Shown piece after piece: positions 3,086 through 12,869 of a DNA stretch of 53,956 nucleotides; positions within the stretch are counted from its first letter, which is position 1, and every line of letters begins with the position of its first letter. The notes below the pieces were generated by a model. That model saw only the letters and a list, made by a program, of their open reading frames with translations. It was not told the origin of the DNA and did not search any database. Source of the DNA: Bacillota bacterium (GTDB lineage Bacteria > Bacillota > Dethiobacteria > DTU022 > UBA8154); assembly GCA_012728375.1 (NCBI GenBank), contig JAAYFF010000007.1, positions 1-53,956 on the forward strand. The letters are read 5' to 3'. The position numbers and the translations under genes were made by a program.

Positions 3086-3472
3086 TCACAAAGGCCCCCT
3101 CGGTTCCGGTGCAGCTCTGGCCGGCGGATTGCCAAAGGGCCTCCGGTAACCGAATGCTTCTGTAAGCGTGAATTCCTCCAAGTTAAATGGGATAGGCGCG
3201 GATTCAGCGGCATATTCAACCCGGATGTAAGGAAGTTCAGTGCCGCTGCTTAAAACGTAAAACAAGGTATCATCCTTATTTGCCGGTTCCCAGTTGCGAA
3301 TGATATTTTTCCCGGCTTTACTCTGAATTCCGGCAGCAACGGCCTTCCTGACCCAACCGTCTTCCTCGCCGCCCGCTTTTGTTGATACCGCATACCAAAC
3401 CATTGCCGTCCCGCCGATTATGGCGATGGCCAAGCTGATTATGAAAATTTTAGCCAATATGCGCAATTTCAA
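3086..3472 (-). CDS. Hypothetical protein with one N-terminal membrane segment
   Basis: I chose the TTG start at 3472 because an AGGAGGTGA ribosome site lies directly upstream of it; the frame itself is open to 3550. The 128-residue product has an N-terminal hydrophobic helix (about residues 6-27, FIISLAIAIIGGTAMVWYAV), then a soluble, presumably extracellular part of about 100 residues with no family I recognise. It follows the signal-peptidase gene at 3557-4648 by 84 bp in the same direction, so it may be a substrate or helper of the secretion locus. It could also be processed by that peptidase. Confidence 0.6.
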   Translation of the reverse strand: MKLRILAKIFIISLAIAIIGGTAMVWYAVSTKAGGEEDGWVRKAVAAGIQSKAGKNIIRNWEPANKDDTLFYVLSSGTELPYIRVEYAAESAPIPFNLEEFTLTEAFGYRRPFGNPPARAAPEPRGPL

Positions 3473-3556
3473 ACGATTCACCTCCTGTATAACTGTACTC
3501 TTCTTCTTGACGCCGGGAACTGGGCCTAACTTAAAATAACTCTCTTTCAAGTAGAT

Positions 3557-4648
3557 TTATTTTTTTTCGTTGCGCCTCATTATGCAGCGGGAGACAGAAC
3601 GCACGTAAGGTCTCGCGGTTTTGTTGTTCAGATAACGGCTTAAACGTCCAATCGATTCGACTTTATTGAAGCGGTTGTGGCGATATTGGGCGTAGCCCCT
3701 TGGCGCTGTCGGGTTCCTACCGGGAACTGAAACCATCTTGTGCGCAAACATAATAATCGTCGCCGGCTCATTGTAAGGGCCGGAATAATTAGCGTTACGC
3801 TCACGGGAAGAATTATTTTTACTGTTTTTTCTTTTCTTTGTTCCCCCGTTTGCCGTTCCGCCGGCAGGCTGTCCGTTAATTTTCTTTAATCCTTTTGTTT
3901 TAACAGGAAGGGGCACTATCTGTGCAGGGAGTCCTGCATCTTCCGCTCCCGCTTCAACATTTATGATTTCAGTATTACCCTTTTCCACAAGCTGTTCCGG
4001 CAGGCTCGGAATAGGAATTTTTATTTCTCTTTTTTTCATCTGTGCTCTTATCTTGAACAAACTGCAAAGCTCAAAAATAATCAGCAAGATTGCCGGAATA
4101 ATGATCATACTTAAAAGGCCTGTCCTGGTCCCGGCAAAACTAATCAGATAACCAACTGCGGGAAGATAATATTCCACCTTTCCAATAATATTTTGCGCGG
4201 GCACGGGAATTGTATCATTGATTTCATTGGCATCGCCGCGAGTTGTAAAACTTAAGCCCTCTTCCCCTGCATGCACGCTGACAACCCGGTGAGTAATCAA
4301 TTCCCCGTTTCCGGCCGCGCTTTGAAAGGTAATAATATCTCCTGCAGCAACATTTTGCGGATCCATAGGCTGAACGAATAGAAGGCTCCCTTTATGAAGT
4401 GCGGGGTTCATGCTGTTGCTCCCGACGATATACAATTGGCGCCCCCATAAGGAAGGGTCTTCTCCCGTAATATTTTGCTGGACCATTAAAAAGACCAAAA
4501 CAGCCAGAAACAAAAAATAAGATGCTAAAACGGCCTTGAAGATGAATCTGGGAAGCAAAAACAGCCGTTTCCAGACTGCCTTCGGCTCTTTCTCTTTCCT
4601 CATTTCCTTTTCCAAACGATCATAATCCGCTATTGTGTCTTCCTGCAT
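3557..4648 (-). CDS. Archaeal/SipW-type signal peptidase I (S26B) with long basic C-terminal tail
   Basis: The 363-residue protein has a membrane helix at about 30-57, the catalytic serine in GSNSMNP (Ser79) and a histidine in THRVV (His120) where ordinary bacterial signal peptidases have lysine. That Ser-His pair marks the S26B (SipW / archaeal / ER) branch. RGDANEINDTIPV near 137-149 is the conserved downstream motif, and a second membrane helix spans about 177-195. The remaining 165 residues are hydrophilic and strongly basic, which is unusual; SipW-type enzymes are normally near 190 residues. It probably processes the SipW-type precursors encoded at 8.4-11.1 kb. AGAGGGG precedes the ATG. 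Confidence 0.85.
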   Translation of the reverse strand: MQEDTIADYDRLEKEMRKEKEPKAVWKRLFLLPRFIFKAVLASYFLFLAVLVFLMVQQNITGEDPSLWGRQLYIVGSNSMNPALHKGSLLFVQPMDPQNVAAGDIITFQSAAGNGELITHRVVSVHAGEEGLSFTTRGDANEINDTIPVPAQNIIGKVEYYLPAVGYLISFAGTRTGLLSMIIIPAILLIIFELCSLFKIRAQMKKREIKIPIPSLPEQLVEKGNTEIINVEAGAEDAGLPAQIVPLPVKTKGLKKINGQPAGGTANGGTKKRKNSKNNSSRERNANYSGPYNEPATIIMFAHKMVSVPGRNPTAPRGYAQYRHNRFNKVESIGRLSRYLNNKTARPYVRSVSRCIMRRNEKK

Positions 4649-4913
4649 TAGGTAACCCCTCTTTTCTATTATTTACCAACTGTAAAAACCGCTTTGGAAA
4701 TACTGTTACCTGCTCCGGGAATATTAATAAGGAAATATTTATATATATAATATTGGTAAAAAGTAAAAAATAATAAAAAGATAAAATATGCTCAGGCTAT
4801 TTATAGCTTATCTGGAAAATTGTAAAAATTCGCCATCCTGTATATGTATTTTTATTAACCCCAGGAAATAATTTTTATGTACTACCAAAAGAGTATCAGT
4901 ATAACCCGGAAGG
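4649..4913. promoter_or_regulatory. AT-rich intergenic region upstream of the signal peptidase gene
   Basis: These 265 bases hold no gene. The part from 4730 to 4800 is very AT-rich (long TATATA and AAAATAATAAAAAG runs) and lies upstream of the minus-strand peptidase gene, so it is the likely promoter region. I could not pick one convincing -35/-10 pair. The separation from the regulator gene suggests an independent transcript. Confidence 0.35.
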
Positions 4914-5564
4914 CTACCCTTTCCCTTGCTTTTTAAAAAGGCCTGCTTCAGTACCCAGACCGTGGGAAAATGCATAGAGAGCAGCCTGGGTCCGATCCTT
5001 CAGGTTTAATTTGTTGAGCAAATTGCTGATATGCTTTTTAACAGTGTTTTCGCTAATGCAAAACTCCCTAGAAATGGCACGGTTGCTGAGCCCTCTTGCC
5101 AGAGCCTGAATAATATCTTTTTCTCTGGCTGTCAGCTCTGCAAACGGTCCATTATTTTCCCGGCGGAGGATATCGTCCAAAATTTCCGGATCATAATAAC
5201 GCCTACCCCTGGCCACAATGCGAATGGCGGAAATAAATTCTTCCGGAAGAGCGCTCTTTAAAATGTAACCGTTTACGTTTTCTGCCATAACTGCTTGTAA
5301 ATCTTTTTTCGAGACAGAGGATGTGAGAACAATAATAGAGCAGGAAGGCAAAAACCCCTTTACCCGGCGGATTAATTCAAATCCGCTTTCTCCGGGCATG
5401 CTTATATCCACAATAACCAGATCGGGTTTTACCTTTTTGATTAACTCCACACCCTGGCTGCAGGACGTAGCAACACCTGCCAGCTCCAGATCTTTTTCCA
5501 GGCTGATGATCTGTTGAATTCCCCTTAAAACAAGAGGATGATCGTCAATAACAACAATTTTCAT
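4914..5564 (-). CDS. NarL/FixJ-type response regulator with LuxR HTH, no adjacent kinase
   Basis: The 216-residue protein has an N-terminal receiver domain: acidic pair IDD at 6-8, phospho-acceptor Asp53 in VIVDISMPG, and a conserved Thr in IIVLTSS. A C-terminal LuxR-type helix-turn-helix follows (about 143-205, ELTAREKDIIQALARGLSNR then ISENTVKKHISNLL). A GGAGGGGAGG ribosome site precedes the ATG. No histidine kinase is adjacent; its position between the two halves of the SipW/TasA-like locus suggests that it regulates the locus. Confidence 0.88.
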   Translation of the reverse strand: MKIVVIDDHPLVLRGIQQIISLEKDLELAGVATSCSQGVELIKKVKPDLVIVDISMPGESGFELIRRVKGFLPSCSIIVLTSSVSKKDLQAVMAENVNGYILKSALPEEFISAIRIVARGRRYYDPEILDDILRRENNGPFAELTAREKDIIQALARGLSNRAISREFCISENTVKKHISNLLNKLNLKDRTQAALYAFSHGLGTEAGLFKKQGKG

Positions 5565-6035
5565 GCGATCAATTCCTCCCCTCCGGATAGTAAAACAGCA
5601 ATAATAATCCTTGACATTTCACAGGGCACCCCAATCCCTTTTCCCGGACCGCCCTTTTGGCAGAAAATTTCTTCCATTTTCTTGCTAATTTATTCGTATT
5701 ACCCATGCTCAGACCCTGTTTCTCCTTTCGTGAAAAATCAAAAGCTTGTCCCAATAAGTTATATCAACGATTTTTCTTTATCCCTTGTGGGCTGTTACAA
5801 ATTTCTCAGCAGCTCACCATATATTAACAGGTAATTTCGACATTATTTAGCAATTATTGGAAACTTGATTAATGATTGATATTCTACCTTTTCAGAGCAA
5901 AATCCTTCCCCAAAAAAAATTTTCTATATTAAAAAAGTAAAAAAGAACCGCAAAAACGCAGGCTCTTTTTACTATTCATTATTAATATTTTGAAAAAGAA
6001 TTTTTCGGAATCATTAATGCTCACCTTCGATGGAA
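5565..6035. other. 470-bp intergenic region
   Basis: It separates the DUF5305 gene from the LuxR-type regulator. It contains the terminator at 5938-5968. The rest is AT-rich (5800-5930) and is the likely promoter region of the regulator. A 45-codon minus-strand frame (MGNTNKLARKWKK start) ends next to the regulator start, but nothing else supports it. Confidence 0.4.
5938..5968 (-). terminator. Rho-independent terminator after the DUF5305 gene
   Basis: On the minus strand AGAGCCTGC, loop GTTTTT, GCGGTTCT forms a stem with one bulged T, followed by TTTTTTAC. It lies about 70 bp past the stop codon of the 6036-7136 gene and would end the matrix-protein transcript. Confidence 0.7.
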
Positions 6036-7136
6036 TCATTTGGAAAGGCGGGCCAAATGTTTCCGGGGCGTATTATTGGCAGAAGAGAAAAAGGATTCTC
6101 CAAGATTGTATCTGTAAACATATTGTTCGGAAATAACAAAAAAGGAATGTTCGCTCTCCTCTTTCGTCTGAAAGTAAAGAATCGGCCTTTCAAGTTCATC
6201 GGCAGCTTTCACCATGTCTTCAAACGAACTTACCATCAGGACATTATGCTGGTTTAAAATTGGTATTTCTGCTGAGCATTTCACAACTCTGTCCTGATAT
6301 TTCTTTAAAATGCGGGACAGCTTTTGCCTTACAGCTTTATTTTTTTCTTCTTTGGCGACGGTCATCTGCACAATGAGCAGCAGAAAAAGGACTAGCAGGA
6401 TAGCAGACAAGCCAAAGCCTATCTTCGCCTCTTCAAAATAGGGGGCGTCTATCTTTCTGGCCGCTGTAATTTCACCGCTTTTAGTATCCTGAAGATTTCC
6501 GCTCACTGCAAACACTTTACCCTTTAGCGGAATAATCATTTGGGGGCTGGCTGCTTCTTCTACTGCCCCATCAGGAGTATTGGCAGTCAAGGCCACGTTG
6601 TAGGATACATTCAAATTAAGCACATCGGGATTAAAACCGATCTTTTCCGTTATTTCTTCCGCATAGGCATAGTACAGGGAAAAGGGCAATAAAATATCCT
6701 TCTGCAGGACGAAATCCTTCCCGTTGGCCTGAAAACTTTCCGGCGGATGAAGAATAAAGCTTTTTTCCCATACTGCATGGTTTTCCGGCCCTGTAGTTGC
6801 TTCCAGAGAAGCAATAACGCTTAACTCACCTTTTATCTCCGCCTCCTCTTGGGCAGAAAATTGGTAGGTAAACTTCGTCCCAATAGTATCGGTTAAGGCA
6901 GAAATGTATGCCCTGCCGGGACCGAGGGAGGGTTCATCGAACAAATCGTTTGGATGGAGATTGACCGTGTAATCAATGTTTGCCTCCTGACTGTAAGAAA
7001 ATGCCTGATATGTTTCCTCCTTCACAGAAGGCCGTGTAAAGCTCCAGTAAAGACCCGCCAATGCCAAAACTAGAAAAAAAATTAAAGTGCTGGTTAAATA
7101 TTGCCTGGTTTTTTTTCTGAGCACCTTTTTCTTCAT
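6036..7136 (-). CDS. DUF5305-type membrane protein
   Basis: The 366-residue protein has an N-terminal membrane helix (about 13-31), an exported beta-rich domain of about 200 residues and a second membrane helix near 240-262, then a basic cytoplasmic tail of about 100 residues. The extracellular part (FTYQFSAQEEAEIKGELSVI and WEKSFIL) resembles DUF5305, a family I recall as encoded beside SipW-type signal peptidases. It begins 24 bp after the peptidase gene ends, in the same direction, so the two are probably co-expressed. It may help peptidase or substrate handling at the membrane; that is inference. Confidence 0.7.
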   Translation of the reverse strand: MKKKVLRKKTRQYLTSTLIFFLVLALAGLYWSFTRPSVKEETYQAFSYSQEANIDYTVNLHPNDLFDEPSLGPGRAYISALTDTIGTKFTYQFSAQEEAEIKGELSVIASLEATTGPENHAVWEKSFILHPPESFQANGKDFVLQKDILLPFSLYYAYAEEITEKIGFNPDVLNLNVSYNVALTANTPDGAVEEAASPQMIIPLKGKVFAVSGNLQDTKSGEITAARKIDAPYFEEAKIGFGLSAILLVLFLLLIVQMTVAKEEKNKAVRQKLSRILKKYQDRVVKCSAEIPILNQHNVLMVSSFEDMVKAADELERPILYFQTKEESEHSFFVISEQYVYRYNLGESFFSSANNTPRKHLARLSK

Positions 7137-7160
7137 GCATTATCAGCTCCTTGTCTCGAT

Positions 7161-8348
7161 TTACCAATTACTATCCCGGCTCCGCGCCAACATGGTTATC
7201 CAGCCCACTTTCGGCACCTTATAAATCACTTTTCCAATCACCTGCTCAGGCAAAACGGGGTCCACATCCCGGTTGCGGTTGGCATCGCCCTTGGTCCATA
7301 AAACTCTTTTGCCCTCTTCATTCTTTCCAATCTCCACGACCCGGTGCGCAATTTTTATATTTCCGGACTTGAACTGGATCACATCTCCTACCTTTATCGC
7401 GTCAGCCGGGGTTTTTTTGACGATCACCACATCACCGATACCGATCTGCGGCAACATACTCCCGCTGACAATAGCCGTGGGGAAAATACTGAACACGCCC
7501 ACTGAAAACCAGATCAACAGCACGCTGGCCACGCTGGTCACCAGCCATGCGAAAAGACCCCCTGTATCCCTGGTTTTCCTCCTGGAGCGGTGAAATTCAC
7601 CCATTAAGAAATGGTGAATGATAATTAATCCAAGGATCGGAGCAATAGTGCCGGCAAGGGATTGGGTAATCCAGTCCAGGTCCGGCAGAATTGGCGAAAA
7701 CCAGCGAAATATCAAAAGGGCTCCCCGGTAAACCATGGCGGGCAGGGCACCGCCCCAGAAAGCAAGGTATGATGTCAGGACATTTTCGGATAGGGCAGGG
7801 AAAAAAATGCTGCCCACAAATTTTACCGCTTCCAAAGCATCCTTCAGGCCGGTAATCCTGCTTAAGGAAAACCAGAAAAAAGAATAACACAGGCTGATGA
7901 CGGCAATTCCCAAAGCCGGCCGTTTGCGAAAAAACATGTTGAGAAACCAGGCCCTGCTCAGTTCCATGCCTGCCGTCAGGAATCCCAAATAAACGATATT
8001 AACGGCGATCCCCCGGAAAGTGAGATCATAAGGGCTTTTTCCAAAACCGTCCAGCAGGCCGGCTCCAAAGGCGGTTAAGATTCCCACTGCAGCACTGATC
8101 AAGGCCAGCCAACAGAGCAGCTTTCTCCACCTCATCTTGGCTGCCCCCCTTGCCGGAGGAAATTTGCGGACCATGAAAGCTACGGCACCCCACAGCAGGG
8201 CAGGGATAACGTATGTGCTCCAAAAAACACCTGCTGCCTGTCCCAGGACCAAAAAATTCCGGCAATAAATAAAGACAATTAAAAGGGATAATATAATTGC
8301 TTGCCGGAGCTGCCCCGATTTGCATTTATCGCGCCATCCTGTCCCCAT
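7161..8348 (-). CDS. Multi-spanning S26B signal peptidase
   Basis: The 395-residue protein has about 250 residues of N-terminal membrane helices (roughly seven or eight) followed by a peptidase domain. Catalytic Ser297 is in VSGSMLP, His335 in IAHRVVEI, and the conserved KGDANRNRDVDPV lies near 350. As in the enzyme at 3557-4648, the Ser-His arrangement is that of SipW and archaeal enzymes. The long membrane part is unlike ordinary SipW. It stands between the acidic SipW-type protein gene and the DUF5305 gene in one probable operon. Confidence 0.85.
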   Translation of the reverse strand: MGTGWRDKCKSGQLRQAIILSLLIVFIYCRNFLVLGQAAGVFWSTYVIPALLWGAVAFMVRKFPPARGAAKMRWRKLLCWLALISAAVGILTAFGAGLLDGFGKSPYDLTFRGIAVNIVYLGFLTAGMELSRAWFLNMFFRKRPALGIAVISLCYSFFWFSLSRITGLKDALEAVKFVGSIFFPALSENVLTSYLAFWGGALPAMVYRGALLIFRWFSPILPDLDWITQSLAGTIAPILGLIIIHHFLMGEFHRSRRKTRDTGGLFAWLVTSVASVLLIWFSVGVFSIFPTAIVSGSMLPQIGIGDVVIVKKTPADAIKVGDVIQFKSGNIKIAHRVVEIGKNEEGKRVLWTKGDANRNRDVDPVLPEQVIGKVIYKVPKVGWITMLARSRDSNW

Positions 8349-8362
8349 AGTACCCCTCGCTT

Positions 8363-8983
8363 TTATTCAGTATCTGCCGGGCTGCTGCTCTCAGCGGAGG
8401 AACCGCCTTCAGCCGAGCTGGAGGAACCGTCTCCGGCACCGTCAGAGCCACCGCCTGAGACACTGTCCCCGGAACCCTCTGAAGGGGAATCTGCCTCCCC
8501 GGCATCATTGGAAGGCGGCGTTTCAAGATCCTGTGTCCCCGTCTCCGAAGCGGGAGGATCTGCAGATGTGGGATCGCTGGAGGTGTCCTTTGCGGGTTCA
8601 TCCCCAGCAGCACTTCCCGTATCCCCTTCTTCAGAGCCTGCTGCGGAAGATGATGCCCCGTCAGTTCCGGGCTCCCCTGCGGAAGACTCGCTTCCGGCAC
8701 CGCTTGAACCGTTACCTTGGCCGTCTGCCTGTTCGCCTTTCTCTGGAGTTTCCCCATTTGTCTCCGTTTGCGGCAGCCCGGCCCTACCTTCAATATTTTG
8801 ACCGGCTCCGTCCTCTTCTGCTTCCGTTATCTGCAAGGGGAGGGCCTCTTCCTCCGCCCGCCAGGTTCCGGTGGCCACGCTTCCTTTCATCAGTAGCGTA
8901 TCATGCCAGTCAGCCCTGCCGGAAGATAAGCCGAGCAACGAGATGAAGATACAAAAAAATAAGAGCATGATTTTGCCTTTCAA
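8363..8983 (-). CDS. Exported SipW-signature protein with acidic Ser/Gly/Glu-rich tail
   Basis: The TTG start at 8983 is favoured because AAAGGGGGAAAAAA precedes it; the frame is open further upstream to 9049. The 206-residue product has a signal-like helix (MLLFFCIFISLLGLSSG), then DWHDTLLMKGSVATG, which is the W-x-D-x-L / G-x-V-x-TG signature shared with the next three genes. After about 70 residues the sequence becomes a repetitive acidic tail of Ser, Gly, Ala, Glu, Asp and Pro to the end, with no folded-domain pattern. It lies 14 bp before the multi-spanning peptidase gene. It could be a flexible surface or matrix component. Confidence 0.7.
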   Translation of the reverse strand: MKGKIMLLFFCIFISLLGLSSGRADWHDTLLMKGSVATGTWRAEEEALPLQITEAEEDGAGQNIEGRAGLPQTETNGETPEKGEQADGQGNGSSGAGSESSAGEPGTDGASSSAAGSEEGDTGSAAGDEPAKDTSSDPTSADPPASETGTQDLETPPSNDAGEADSPSEGSGDSVSGGGSDGAGDGSSSSAEGGSSAESSSPADTE

Positions 8984-9105
8984 ACTTTTTTCCCCCTTTC
9001 CCGTAAACTTCACCGTAAAAACCAGGGGAAAGCAGCCGAAGACCGGCAACTTCCCCTTGATTTTTAACAGTGCACTTCTTCTCTATTGATAAAAGGTTCC
9101 ATTGT

Positions 9106-9771
9106 TTACTGGTTCCACTGTATAAAGTCCATCTCCAGAGTGAGGACAACGGTCCGGCCCTGGGTATCGTTAGGAGCATCCTCGCGCAACCTGAAGCGCA
9201 GACATTGGGGCTCCCCTTTTTCATCCACAGTGCCGAGCGAGATCCAGCCTCCCGGCTCCAACACCGCAGCTAAAAGCTGAGCTGAGGCGTTAATCCTTTC
9301 ATCCAGTTCCACCAAGGGGAACCACTCCTCGGTGATATCGGAAACAGCGTAAACGGTACCGCCGGGATTTTTACAAAAAGAGGCATCTACTTTTGCTTCC
9401 AGGTAATCTATTACCGGGTTTTGCGGATCGTCGAAGCTAAGGGTCGCGGAGTTCAAGCGCACGGGAATGCTGCCCGCGTTTTTTTTCACGGTATGCAGCC
9501 GGAAAGCAGGGCAACCCGGATATAAATTATCCAGTGTAAACTCCACTTTTTTGCCCTCCTCACAGATACGGGCATTTCCGCTCAAAAGCCCGGCCGGATC
9601 GGTCACGGGGACAGCGAGCATACTGGTTGTAAAGATGACGTTCACTTCACCCGTTGCCACGGTCCCGCCCACATTCAGCTGATCTGCCCAGGCCGCGTAC
9701 CCGGTCCCCATAAAAACCGCGAAAACGGTAAGAATAGCTATCAGTATTTTTATTTTCTTAATACCTAACAC
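9106..9771 (-). CDS. SipW-dependent (TasA/camelysin-like) exported protein
   Basis: The 221-residue protein has a basic N-terminus, a hydrophobic helix (ILIAILTVFAVFMGTGYAAW) and the signature WADQLNVGGTVATGEVNVIF. Beyond that it is beta-rich and ends in VVLTLEMDFIQWNQ, a C-terminal strand also found in the next two genes (DFVQWN, FFQQWSG). This layout is typical of TasA and CalY (camelysin) fibre proteins, which SipW matures. A segment NLYPGCPAFRLHTVKKNAGS corresponds to AYPGYVSQIDYTVTNNGS of the neighbour, showing that the proteins are paralogues. Confidence 0.8.
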   Translation of the reverse strand: MLGIKKIKILIAILTVFAVFMGTGYAAWADQLNVGGTVATGEVNVIFTTSMLAVPVTDPAGLLSGNARICEEGKKVEFTLDNLYPGCPAFRLHTVKKNAGSIPVRLNSATLSFDDPQNPVIDYLEAKVDASFCKNPGGTVYAVSDITEEWFPLVELDERINASAQLLAAVLEPGGWISLGTVDEKGEPQCLRFRLREDAPNDTQGRTVVLTLEMDFIQWNQ

Positions 9772-9782
9772 CGCCTTTCACT

Positions 9783-9836
9783 CCCCCTTTTGGAATAAGG
9801 GGGAATCCTGGGGAAAGGAAACCTTCCCCCAGGAAT
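9783..9836 (-). promoter_or_regulatory. Two stem-loops between two SipW-type protein genes
   Basis: On the minus strand TCCTGGGG...CCCCAGGA (9804-9836) forms a strong GC-rich hairpin with an inner GAAGG/CCTT extension. A second hairpin, CCCCCTTATTCC with AAAAGGGGG, follows at 9783-9803. Only short U runs follow. They may be a partial terminator or an RNA-stabilising structure that sets different levels for the genes on each side. Confidence 0.6.
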
Positions 9837-9857
9837 TTTTTACAGATTTATTGGCCT

Positions 9858-10475
9858 TCACTCGGCTACATAGTTATTCCACTGGACAAAGTCATAGGTA
9901 ATCGTGTAGGTGTAAGTGGAATTCTCTAAAGCATCATCGGTAACAATATGGCCTATTGAGCCTTCAAAAGTATCACCTTGATGGATCTGGCTGCCAATCT
10001 CTAAAACGTTAGGAGGCGGAGGGGGTGGGTTACCACAATCACAATCCCACCACCATTTCCAACAGCGAGGGCAGATGAATGCATAATTATCAACTTCCAG
10101 CCCGGCCGGATCGCCGCTGACAACATCAATGGTTTTGTTCTGCAGTCTTACCGGAACAGAACCATTATTGGTCACCGTATAATCAATTTGCGATACGTAA
10201 CCCGGGTAGGCATTCTCAATGGTAACAGTCATCGTTTTGCCGTCATCGGAAAGGGATACCTCAGTGCAACCAACATCCTTGGGATCATCTTCAGGGGAGG
10301 CGGGGTCGTCTGTGCCCTCCGGGTCATTGCTTACAGCTGAAGTGAAGACCACATCAATATCGCCGGTGGCCACCGTGCCGCTAACTTGCAGCTGATCCGT
10401 CCATGCGGCATAAGCCCCGCCGATGAGCCCGAAGGCCAAAACTAAAACTAACGCAATATACTTCACTTTTTTCAT
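9858..10475 (-). CDS. SipW-dependent exported protein with Cys/Trp-rich and polyproline insert
   Basis: The 205-residue protein starts MKKVKYIALVLVLAFGLIGG, then has AYAAWTDQLQVSGTVATGD, the SipW-type signal and signature. A beta-rich body follows with AYPGYVSQIDYTVTNNGSVP, as in its paralogues, ending in TYDFVQWNNYVAE. Near residues 135-155 lies an insert, CPRCWKWWWDCDCG, followed by six prolines; neither flanking paralogue has it. The four cysteines could bind metal or form disulfides. Ribosome site AGGAGAG precedes the ATG. It is probably a major fibre or matrix subunit. Confidence 0.8.
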   Translation of the reverse strand: MKKVKYIALVLVLAFGLIGGAYAAWTDQLQVSGTVATGDIDVVFTSAVSNDPEGTDDPASPEDDPKDVGCTEVSLSDDGKTMTVTIENAYPGYVSQIDYTVTNNGSVPVRLQNKTIDVVSGDPAGLEVDNYAFICPRCWKWWWDCDCGNPPPPPPNVLEIGSQIHQGDTFEGSIGHIVTDDALENSTYTYTITYDFVQWNNYVAE

Positions 10476-10598
10476 TCAATTCACTCTCCTAAATTTTTTT
10501 TTAAAATGCCTTTTCCCCTTAAACAACATGCAACTGCTTGAACATTTTTTTTAGACTCTCTGCCCCCCTACCACCACCTTTAAGACTTAATAATTATC

Positions 10599-11072
10599 TT
10601 AGCGGGGAGTACCGCTCCATTGCTGGAAAAAAAGCTCCAGGTCAAAGTTGTACGTTGTCAGCTCCTCTGCCTCATCCTCTTCCACCTGGACAAACACTTT
10701 TCCGGCAGCACTGTCCCCGTTTCCGCCAAGAATTCCCTGATCCGGCGTACCAGTCACTAAAAGCCCGGGGTCGCTGTTTTCTATCCTGGTATAGAACTCA
10801 AGAGGTACGCTGCCGCGATTTTGTACTGTATATTCAAAGGTCATCACATTCCCCGGACAAGCATCTTCTACAAAAATGGATATTGCTTTCCCGTTGTTTA
10901 CGATAGAAGCTTCCCCTTGCGAGACAGCCATCACGCTTGTAAAAACCGGGTCAATTTCCCCGGTGGAGACAACCCCCTCTATCCCCAGCCTGTCCTGCCA
11001 GGCAGCCGCGGCGGCGCCTATTATGCCAAGAGCAATGGTCAACGCAATCCATATCGATGCAGTCACCGCCAA
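10599..11072 (-). CDS. SipW-dependent (TasA/camelysin-like) exported protein, short form
   Basis: The 157-residue protein starts with TTG at 11072 after AAGGGGAAGG. It has a hydrophobic signal (IWIALTIALGIIGAAAAAW), the signature WQDRLGIEGVVSTGEIDPVF, the ACPGNVMTFEYTVQNRGSVP core shared with its neighbours and the terminal LELFFQQWSG. It is the first gene of the probable operon that runs down to the DUF5305 gene. Being the smallest, it may be a nucleator or minor subunit; no sequence feature proves that. Confidence 0.75.
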   Translation of the reverse strand: MAVTASIWIALTIALGIIGAAAAAWQDRLGIEGVVSTGEIDPVFTSVMAVSQGEASIVNNGKAISIFVEDACPGNVMTFEYTVQNRGSVPLEFYTRIENSDPGLLVTGTPDQGILGGNGDSAAGKVFVQVEEDEAEELTTYNFDLELFFQQWSGTPR

Positions 11073-11244
11073 GTTTTTTTTCCTTCCCCTTTTTTTTCTA
11101 ATGCCGGTTCACTCCCTTCCAGCGAAAAATATACACTTTTCTTAACTTTTCTAATTTGTTGCTCCGCTCAGTCACTTTTTAACATAACCTAATATATCAC
11201 CTTTGCCTCTTAAAACGGTCTTACCAATGTCTCAATACCGTCCC

Positions 11245-11280
11245 AAAAAAAACCTGCACTTTTCTTCAGAAAAATGCAGG
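11245..11280 (-). terminator. Rho-independent terminator after the BTAD regulator gene
   Basis: On the minus strand CCTGCATTTTTCTGA pairs with AGAAAAGTGCAGG and is followed by TTTTTTTT. It lies about 60 bp after the regulator stop codon and separates it from the SipW-type operon. Confidence 0.85.
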
Positions 11281-11337
11281 GGGCCTGCCTAGCAAGGCAA
11301 ATTTTCAGGAATCAGCCAACCGTCAGACATTAGGCTT

Positions 11338-12621
11338 TTATAATCCAAGAGCCGTTTTTCCCGTGGCTTCCATGGCTTTAAGGGGACTGGACGTGCTCTG
11401 CAAAATAATGTCACTAAAGAGGTGAACGTCCGCACAACGTTTTACAACACGGTCCAGCGCCTTTTTAGCCTGCTCGTGATTTAAACATTCAAGCATTAAA
11501 TAAAACTGATTTTTGTTCCAACGGCAAACGATGTCTCCTTTACGCAGATTTCTCCTTAACACTTTTTCCACAAAATCCATGGCCTCCGTCAATTTTTTTT
11601 CCTCAGGCACGGTAAAATCAGGATGGGTAAGTTCCAGGCACCCCCAGAAAACGGGCTGTTCGTTTCTCTCTGCTCTACGTTCTTCCAACCGATAGAGTTT
11701 AAGGAAGATATCGGGGTCACAAAAAAAAGCTCCCGCCTCGCTGCCGCCGGCAGAATGTCTCGCGGGCGTCGGCCAATCTTCGACCTGTGGCTTTTTGTAG
11801 TTTGTTATTTTTTTATAGAGGTCGCGCATGGCGACAGAGGGCTTCATGCCGGTTTCACGGTATAAAAGAGAGCTGGCATAATTGTAGTGGGTCTTTGCCA
11901 GGTCGCTTCTGCCTTCTTCCAGCAGCGCTTCGATAAAGCAGATGTGCAAATCTTCCTGGTAAGGTTCAATTAAAAAAGTTTTCTCGCAAACATTCCTGAG
12001 TTCCTGATACCTTCCGGCCTCCCTTAAAAGCTCTATTTGCTTGTAAACGCTTTCCAGATAAAGCCGATGATAATAATTGCGTACCGGGACAACCCAATCG
12101 TCATAAAAGCTTTCCGGCAAATAATATCCGTTATACAGGGAAAGAGCTTGATGATAAATATCGATTGCCTTTGCCGGCTCCTTGGAGGCTGTCATCCGGG
12201 CTTCGCTGCACAATTTTTTAAATTCATCCGCGTCCAACCAATAATTTGAAGACGGATTTAAAAAGTACATTCCCTGGGACATGATAATATATTGGGGATC
12301 TGAACCCGGAGGAAGCCCTGCCGCTAAAAAACGTCGCAGACGATAAACAAGATTGCGCAACGTGCGTTCAGGATCCAAAAGTTCTTCTTCAGGATAGAGA
12401 CTTTCCATCAGTTCTTCCGTTGTTTTGCCGCGGTATGAGAATAAATACTTGAAAAGCTTCCATAACTTGCTGGACCTTCCGGCATCCAAAGTAAGCAAAT
12501 TGTCTCCCCGTTTTACCAGAAATTGCCCTAAGGTAAAAATTTCCAGCCTGTCATATGATTGTTTTTTTTCCTTTTCATAAAAATTTTTTTCATGAATAAA
12601 CATATTCTGATGCCTGTCCAC
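11338..12621 (-). CDS. BTAD-family transcriptional regulator with GGDEF-like C-terminal domain
   Basis: The 427-residue protein has an OmpR-like winged helix (about 25-110, LEIFTLGQFLVKRGD then TLRNLVYRLRRFL). A bacterial transcriptional activator (BTAD) TPR-like domain follows (about 118-270). The last 120 residues have a GGDEF-like pattern: RRNLRKGDIVCRWNKNQFYL aligns with R-x2-D-x3-R-GGDEF-x-LL, but the signature is NKNQF, so cyclase activity is unlikely. It has its own terminator and sits head of the SipW-type genes, so it probably regulates them. The frame starts at GTG 12621; an ATG six codons in (12603) is an alternative. Confidence 0.82.
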   Translation of the reverse strand: MDRHQNMFIHEKNFYEKEKKQSYDRLEIFTLGQFLVKRGDNLLTLDAGRSSKLWKLFKYLFSYRGKTTEELMESLYPEEELLDPERTLRNLVYRLRRFLAAGLPPGSDPQYIIMSQGMYFLNPSSNYWLDADEFKKLCSEARMTASKEPAKAIDIYHQALSLYNGYYLPESFYDDWVVPVRNYYHRLYLESVYKQIELLREAGRYQELRNVCEKTFLIEPYQEDLHICFIEALLEEGRSDLAKTHYNYASSLLYRETGMKPSVAMRDLYKKITNYKKPQVEDWPTPARHSAGGSEAGAFFCDPDIFLKLYRLEERRAERNEQPVFWGCLELTHPDFTVPEEKKLTEAMDFVEKVLRRNLRKGDIVCRWNKNQFYLMLECLNHEQAKKALDRVVKRCADVHLFSDIILQSTSSPLKAMEATGKTALGL

Positions 12622-12816: not shown

Positions 12817-12869
12817 GTAACTGCTCAGAGGTTAATGTATAACGGATTATCTCTTCCTTACGCAGTTAC
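12817..12869. repeat. MITE-like element, copy B (53 bp, internally deleted)
   Basis: It starts GTAACTGCTCAGAGGTTAAT, like the right end of copy A read backwards, and ends TTATCTCTTCCTTACGCAGTTAC-like, matching the left end of copy A; the interior is missing. A 7-bp direct repeat AAACGTC flanks it on both sides (12810-12816 and 12870-12876). That is good evidence for insertion as a mobile unit. Confidence 0.75.

Follow-up and report, generated by a model that had tools for sequence, protein, structure and literature searches.

What an uncultured anaerobic bacterium might build with four exported proteins that carry the same short signature is the question raised by a locus of ten genes at positions 3086-12621 of contig JAAYFF010000007.1 (assembly GCA_012728375.1, Bacillota bacterium, class Dethiobacteria). 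The whole stretch analysed, referred to here as the window, comprises 53,956 nucleotides (54 kb); the ten genes, like all genes and RNA elements located below, lie on its minus strand. In the order of transcription they encode a BTAD regulator, the exported proteins A, B, C and D, a signal peptidase (pep1), a DUF5305 membrane protein, a LuxR-type response regulator, a second signal peptidase (pep2) and a protein of 128 residues. Fibres of the TasA type are known from a few species of Bacillus and Clostridium and from some hyperthermophilic archaea. The evidence set out below makes it quite probable that the product of the locus is a surface fibre, built by donor-strand exchange and belonging to the TasA/camelysin/archaeal-bundling-pilus superfamily; a matrix function is suggested by analogy.

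An initial annotation of this DNA had described a W-x-D-x-L / G-x-V-x-TG signature after the signal helix of four proteins. When open reading frames (ORFs) of at least 40 amino acids across the window were searched with the strict pattern W.D.[LIV].{3}G.V.TG, exactly four were returned (10599-11072, 9858-10475, 9106-9771 and 8363-9049), and these are the adjacent genes A to D (8363-11072). A chance origin of the signature was rejected. An independent profile, built solely from twelve relatives in other genomes, matched A (10599-11072), B (9858-10475) and C (9106-9771) with E-values of 2e-19, 9e-50 and 4e-29, respectively. The matches survived removal of the signal and signature region from the profile (2e-8, 5e-26 and 2e-17), so the three proteins share a real core domain. 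Six residues (W25, G38, P91, N103, G105 and Q198 in B numbering) are invariant in the 15-member alignment. The second motif that the annotation had ascribed to three proteins, a PG...YTV.N.GSVP core with a terminal QW, is exact in A and B and looser in C (PG...HTVKKNAGSIP...QW). No further members of the family were found elsewhere in the source genome by a genome search.

The relationship to known fibres emerged when a family profile that includes the window sequences was compared with all PDB sequences. Its best matches were to AbpX (9sj2, 2.4e-19; 9rhp, 6.2e-14), the subunit of an ABP-like fibre of Pyrodictium abyssi (PMC11952670), and TasA was matched at 3.6e-5 (5of1) and 4.9e-5 (8aur) with an alignment that spans the core, as the proposed homology to TasA had led one to expect. 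B alone matched AbpX in a phmmer search at 3.9e-6, with W25 placed opposite residue 2 of AbpX. Compared with the PDB, one archaeal protein of the camelysin type returned nothing useful. Judged by these alignments, A, B and C are members of the TasA/AbpX superfamily and full subunits, in which signal helix and donor strand precede a sandwich core. In TasA, subunits are linked by an N-terminal strand, residues 28-38, that is passed to the next subunit (PMC9674648), and the aligned donor strand of AbpX reads W-S-E-T-L-S-L-S-A-T-I-S-T-G. Because W25 falls on residue 2 of AbpX and TasA subunits are joined by their N-terminal strand, the signature is best read as an N-terminal donor strand that follows the predicted peptidase cut. 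The AlphaFold model of B (m7afb44896005, pLDDT 80) contains a signal helix, an unpaired segment at 25-41 and a beta sandwich. In the construct 9rhp the donor-strand stretch is at the C-terminus, which in our reading fits a self-complemented form.

Curated models were exceeded by B in one case, as TIGR04088 for SipW-dependent-type signal peptides (cut-off 19) gave 25.4 bits for B and a sub-threshold 11.2 bits for C, with A and D unlisted. For the camelysin family Peptidase_M73 (PF12389), B reached 16.3 bits against a gathering cut-off of 22.5 and A, C and D were unlisted, while the BsaA family (TIGR04090) gave 12.4 bits for B against a cut-off of 60. The SipW equivalog NF046067 (cut-off 190) gave 119.7 and 64.8 bits for the two peptidases. 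By curated cut-offs the locus is thus outside the camelysin (M73), BsaA and SipW families. The sub-threshold M73 match of B (E 0.009) could be taken to mean that the exported proteins are soluble camelysin-like proteins or peptidases that form no polymer. We regard this as very improbable, since the match does not extend beyond the signal and signature, the core is related to fibre proteins, and a conserved donor strand would be purposeless in a soluble protein.

A sheath or two-dimensional surface layer, tethered to the membrane by D and DUF5305, would also use several different subunits from one operon and a membrane partner conserved beside the peptidase, and one weak match of the family profile is an S-layer protein (9f8e, E 0.03). 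However, the significant relatives, AbpX and TasA, form linear fibres (PMC11952670, PMC9674648), and a layer in place of a free fibre appears improbable.

Two S26B signal peptidases of different build had been reported for the locus, and both exceed the cut-off of 51.85 bits of the archaeal-type signal peptidase model TIGR02228. The first, pep1 (7161-8348, 84.9 bits), begins with about 260 residues of N-terminal transmembrane (TM) segments. Its Ser297, His335 and Asp355 are invariant across pep1 and eleven relatives, as are many positions of the N-terminal extension, for which a known family was rejected for lack of any Pfam match. In the SipW-like pep2 (3557-4648, 108 bits), Ser, His and Asp were read directly from the sequence, and the protein ends in a long basic tail with 31 K+R and 11 D+E. 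The donor-strand reading explains the need for such special peptidases. TasA has an aromatic P2' residue, a site that E. coli LepB cleaves poorly and SipW does cleave (PMC10269814); in A to D, W would occupy P2' in all four if the cut falls at A|xW.

Protein D (8363-8983) differs from the other three. Its start at 8983 (TTG) is preferred over 9049, and the protein consists of a signal helix, a donor strand ending in TG-x-W and a predicted disordered tail of 164 acidic, Ser/Gly-rich residues (38 D+E, 3 K+R). The family profile matches approximately the first 42 residues, the signal helix and signature (E about 2e-4), and the core profile gave no match to D, which therefore shares with A, B and C the donor strand alone. 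D-type proteins were found immediately upstream of the long peptidase in seven of the loci of other genomes that are given L-numbers here (L041, L042, L051, L054, L056, L059 and L065), and the position is held in L027 and L062 by an exported protein that is longer and has an acidic tail. The G-x-W that follows the donor strand in D and several bacterial counterparts recurs in archaeal loci, in a short exported protein encoded before the long peptidase. A precedent is TapA of Bacillus subtilis, which gives its N-terminus to TasA and whose secreted residues 44-57 alone support biofilm formation (PMC10151520). With a donor strand and no sandwich to accept one, D may start, cap or tether the fibre in the manner of TapA.

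B was singled out as the probable main subunit, since it matches the family best and the strong RNA hairpins behind its gene would favour its expression. These hairpins, two in tandem with 12 and 10 pairs, occupy the gap between B and C (9780-9833; -38.4 kcal/mol, z -3.6) and lack a T-tract; they are proposed to act as an attenuator or stabiliser. In a comparison of 21 loci, z was lower at the junction that follows the best-scoring subunit gene (median -3.8) than at other junctions (-0.45; p 1e-6; paired p 1e-4), with p values that are optimistic because the pattern was noticed before the test and the loci are related. Strong hairpins of differing sequence occur at the same position, directly 3' of the main subunit gene, in L073, L042, L041 and L052. 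In Clostridium perfringens, a predicted terminator after bsaA yields a short sipW-bsaA transcript and a long one (PMC7395162). By analogy, we read the B-C hairpins as a possible device for producing the main subunit in excess.

The DUF5305 protein (6036-7136) matched PF17231 over the full profile length with 114.7 bits (gathering cut-off 29; E 6e-33). Its model (m24cff24370d2, pLDDT 85) shows a TM segment, an external beta sandwich, a second TM segment and a small cytosolic domain, with the TM segments at residues 14-32 and 243-261. The model is similar to FnIII-like sandwiches, such as that of Vibrio cholerae RbmA (Z 9.1, rmsd 2.6, 112 residues aligned). Assignment of a function from the fold was rejected, as scores close to that of RbmA are also reached by transglutaminase and other sandwiches. 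No mention of DUF5305 was found in the literature searched.

DUF5305 is present in 15 of 76 genomes of the class, in 36 of 398 genomes of a phylum sample and in 76 of 296 genomes of the phylum of the ANME-type archaeon from which L058 derives; it was not found in the control genomes, B. subtilis among them. An S26B peptidase lies within 5 kb of DUF5305 in 48 of the 57 loci read. Of the nine others, eight end at a contig end, and in L029 the peptidase is broken up and was seen by a genome search. Among the 30 well-flanked loci, the corresponding numbers are 29 for the peptidase and 28 for an exported partner, and in 26 loci the N-extended peptidase is directly upstream of DUF5305. The archaeal sample shows a similar linkage, with S26B within 1.5 kb in 24 of 30 cases. 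The initial annotation had asked whether the two peptidases, DUF5305 and BTAD always travel together, and had named a loss of linkage between peptidases and signature proteins in relatives as grounds for abandoning the idea. The relatives examined gave no such grounds, and S26B and DUF5305 do travel together, whereas BTAD, the kinase and LuxR-type regulator, and the second peptidase vary. What is conserved is a core of exported proteins together with DUF5305 and an S26B peptidase whose N-terminus is extended by several TM segments.

Two builds of the locus were distinguished. In type I, the subunits are followed by D, pep1 and DUF5305, together with BTAD or a histidine kinase and LuxR-type regulator, while type II has the order X (an exported protein with an acidic tail), DUF5305, histidine kinase, LuxR and S26B. 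The type II order was observed in L030, L045, L046, L047, L133 and L136, where the family profile finds no TasA-like subunits. L051, from the culturable relative Heliobacterium mobile, holds A, two B-type genes, D, pep1 and DUF5305. The window combines the type I core with the LuxR-S26B end of type II, minus the kinase, as does the same-genus locus L026. Second peptidases are rare in bacteria, with examples in the window, L026 and perhaps L056, and occur in three archaeal cassettes. The locus is patchy in its distribution, as the same-genus genome G001 lacks both DUF5305 and the subunits.

The type II order raises the alternative that DUF5305 and its tail-bearing exported neighbour serve chiefly as a sensory or checkpoint module informing the regulator about secretion, with a secondary role of DUF5305 in the fibre. 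The DUF5305 model, which joins external and cytosolic parts through a TM helix, would suit such a module. Nevertheless, many loci, the window included, have no kinase beside DUF5305, and the peptidase is its most constant neighbour, so we consider a mainly sensory role rather unlikely.

As to regulation, the presence of DUF5305, an orphan LuxR-type regulator and a BTAD regulator was borne out. The BTAD (SARP-like) transcription regulator (11338-12621) matched PF03704 with 68.6 bits (cut-off 22.1; E 1e-18), with Trans_reg_C just under its cut-off (22.3 versus 26.2 bits). Its residues 351-399 show a weak GGDEF-like match (PF00990, 24.6 bits versus 23.8). The same regulator gene stands ahead of A-B-C in L073 and ahead of the subunits in L041, L042 and L027. 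In L076 and L077, where DUF5305 is absent, BTAD lies close to classical camelysin genes of the sipW type and may thus be a general regulator of such loci in this group. The NarL/LuxR-type response regulator (4914-5564; PF00072, E 1.6e-23; PF00196, E 1.3e-18) adjoins a kinase in relatives and has none beside it in the window. A genome search for a partner kinase gave, as the best match to the type II kinase, a protein with 34% identity over the C-terminal part, and none was assigned.

The gap between BTAD and A contains an intrinsic terminator (11253-11280) with a 12-bp stem followed by eight T, and a terminator-like hairpin lies 3' of DUF5305 (5942-5973, approximate limits). Genes A to DUF5305 are therefore probably transcribed as a single operon, and BTAD, LuxR and pep2 separately from it. 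The last gene was annotated as an ORF at 3086-3550 with a probable start at 3472 (3086-3472). It is a real gene, as the extreme C-terminus PEPRGPL is kept at the same place in L026, and the 128-residue product, exported or membrane-anchored with one TM or signal helix, is a possible further peptidase substrate; scans of Pfam and NCBIfam gave no match. Downstream of this gene, a 51-nt direct repeat (88%) occurs at 2667-2717 and 2808-2858. A perfect 26-nt inverted repeat is found on either side of the locus (2351-2376 and 12817-12842). A MITE-like family with ends GTAACTGCTCAG, to which this repeat can be assigned, has 15 copies in the genome at up to 3 mismatches; since one such pair is close to chance expectation, a mobile-element origin was rejected.

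Taken together, a fibre could be assembled as follows. A, B and C would leave the cell via Sec, and pep1, perhaps with pep2 for some substrates, would cut just before the signature. The cut would free the N-terminal strand (A-)W-x-D-x-L-x-x-x-G-x-V-x-T-G, which would complete the beta sandwich of the next subunit, with B as the main component. D, unable to accept a strand, could fill the last open groove. DUF5305, beside pep1, would act as a membrane anchor or assembly platform, and the BTAD and LuxR-type regulators would control expression. The earlier idea of a multi-component fibre with dedicated processing is probable in view of the TasA homology and the S26B peptidases, although the four proteins are not equivalent, as D lacks the sandwich. 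More tentatively, donor-strand fibres in Firmicutes and archaea alike might be put together by a dedicated membrane machine made up of D, the long S26B peptidase and DUF5305. Cleavage by the peptidase would then be coupled to assembly, and each fibre would be started or ended by a donor-strand-only protein; the machine would be a counterpart of the chaperone-usher system in cells without an outer membrane.

Several points weigh against the proposed fibre. A Foldseek search with the B model ranks TasA 20th (E 0.03), and TasA was not among the top 50 matches listed by a second structural search. B is the one protein to pass the curated SipW-substrate model. D could be a decayed subunit, yet its recurrence in other genera argues against decay. 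The role proposed for DUF5305 is drawn from neighbourhood and topology.

Several known systems are close to the locus. AbpX, the best sequence match of the subunit family with the donor strand included, belongs to another domain of life. The tapA-sipW-tasA operon of B. subtilis shares a homologous sandwich subunit (E 4e-5), an S26B-type peptidase and a donor-strand initiator, TapA. However, it has one peptidase, and D lacks the complete Ig domain present in TapA (PMC10151520). The C. perfringens sipW-bsaABCRSD locus, with four putative secreted proteins, a two-component system and a proven extracellular polymer (PMC7395162), likewise combines a peptidase with several secreted proteins and has a terminator after the main subunit gene. 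The contrast first drawn with known loci, credited with one peptidase and one or two substrates, was thus overstated, even though sipW-bsaABCRSD as described has one peptidase and no BTAD gene, and the window proteins fail the BsaA model. In three archaeal cassettes (L058, L171 and L174), several exported proteins of the camelysin type accompany two S26B peptidases and a short exported protein with G-x-W after the donor strand; DUF5305 comes last in L058 and L174 and for L171 was found in the same genome stretch. They differ in that the long peptidase has 285-361 residues with a bacterial-type N-terminal extension not demonstrated, the second peptidase is placed elsewhere in the order, and no BTAD or LuxR gene was seen. 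The proposed system would operate in the manner of TasA and AbpX fibres, and sequence places its subunits in their superfamily. New points are the donor-strand-only protein D, the S26B-DUF5305 pair and the RNA hairpin after the main subunit gene.

The locus is of a kind that is widespread, shared by clostridia and archaea, and apparently unstudied. It would represent a second, broad build of TasA-type systems in anaerobes, whose constant partners, DUF5305 and, in bacteria, the N-extended peptidase, have had no assigned function, and it gives DUF5305 a testable role. Since D amounts to a secreted donor strand with a tail, it may allow the donor-strand idea to be tested in a minimal natural form. 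One type of surface fibre may be common to anaerobic bacteria and ANME-type archaea.

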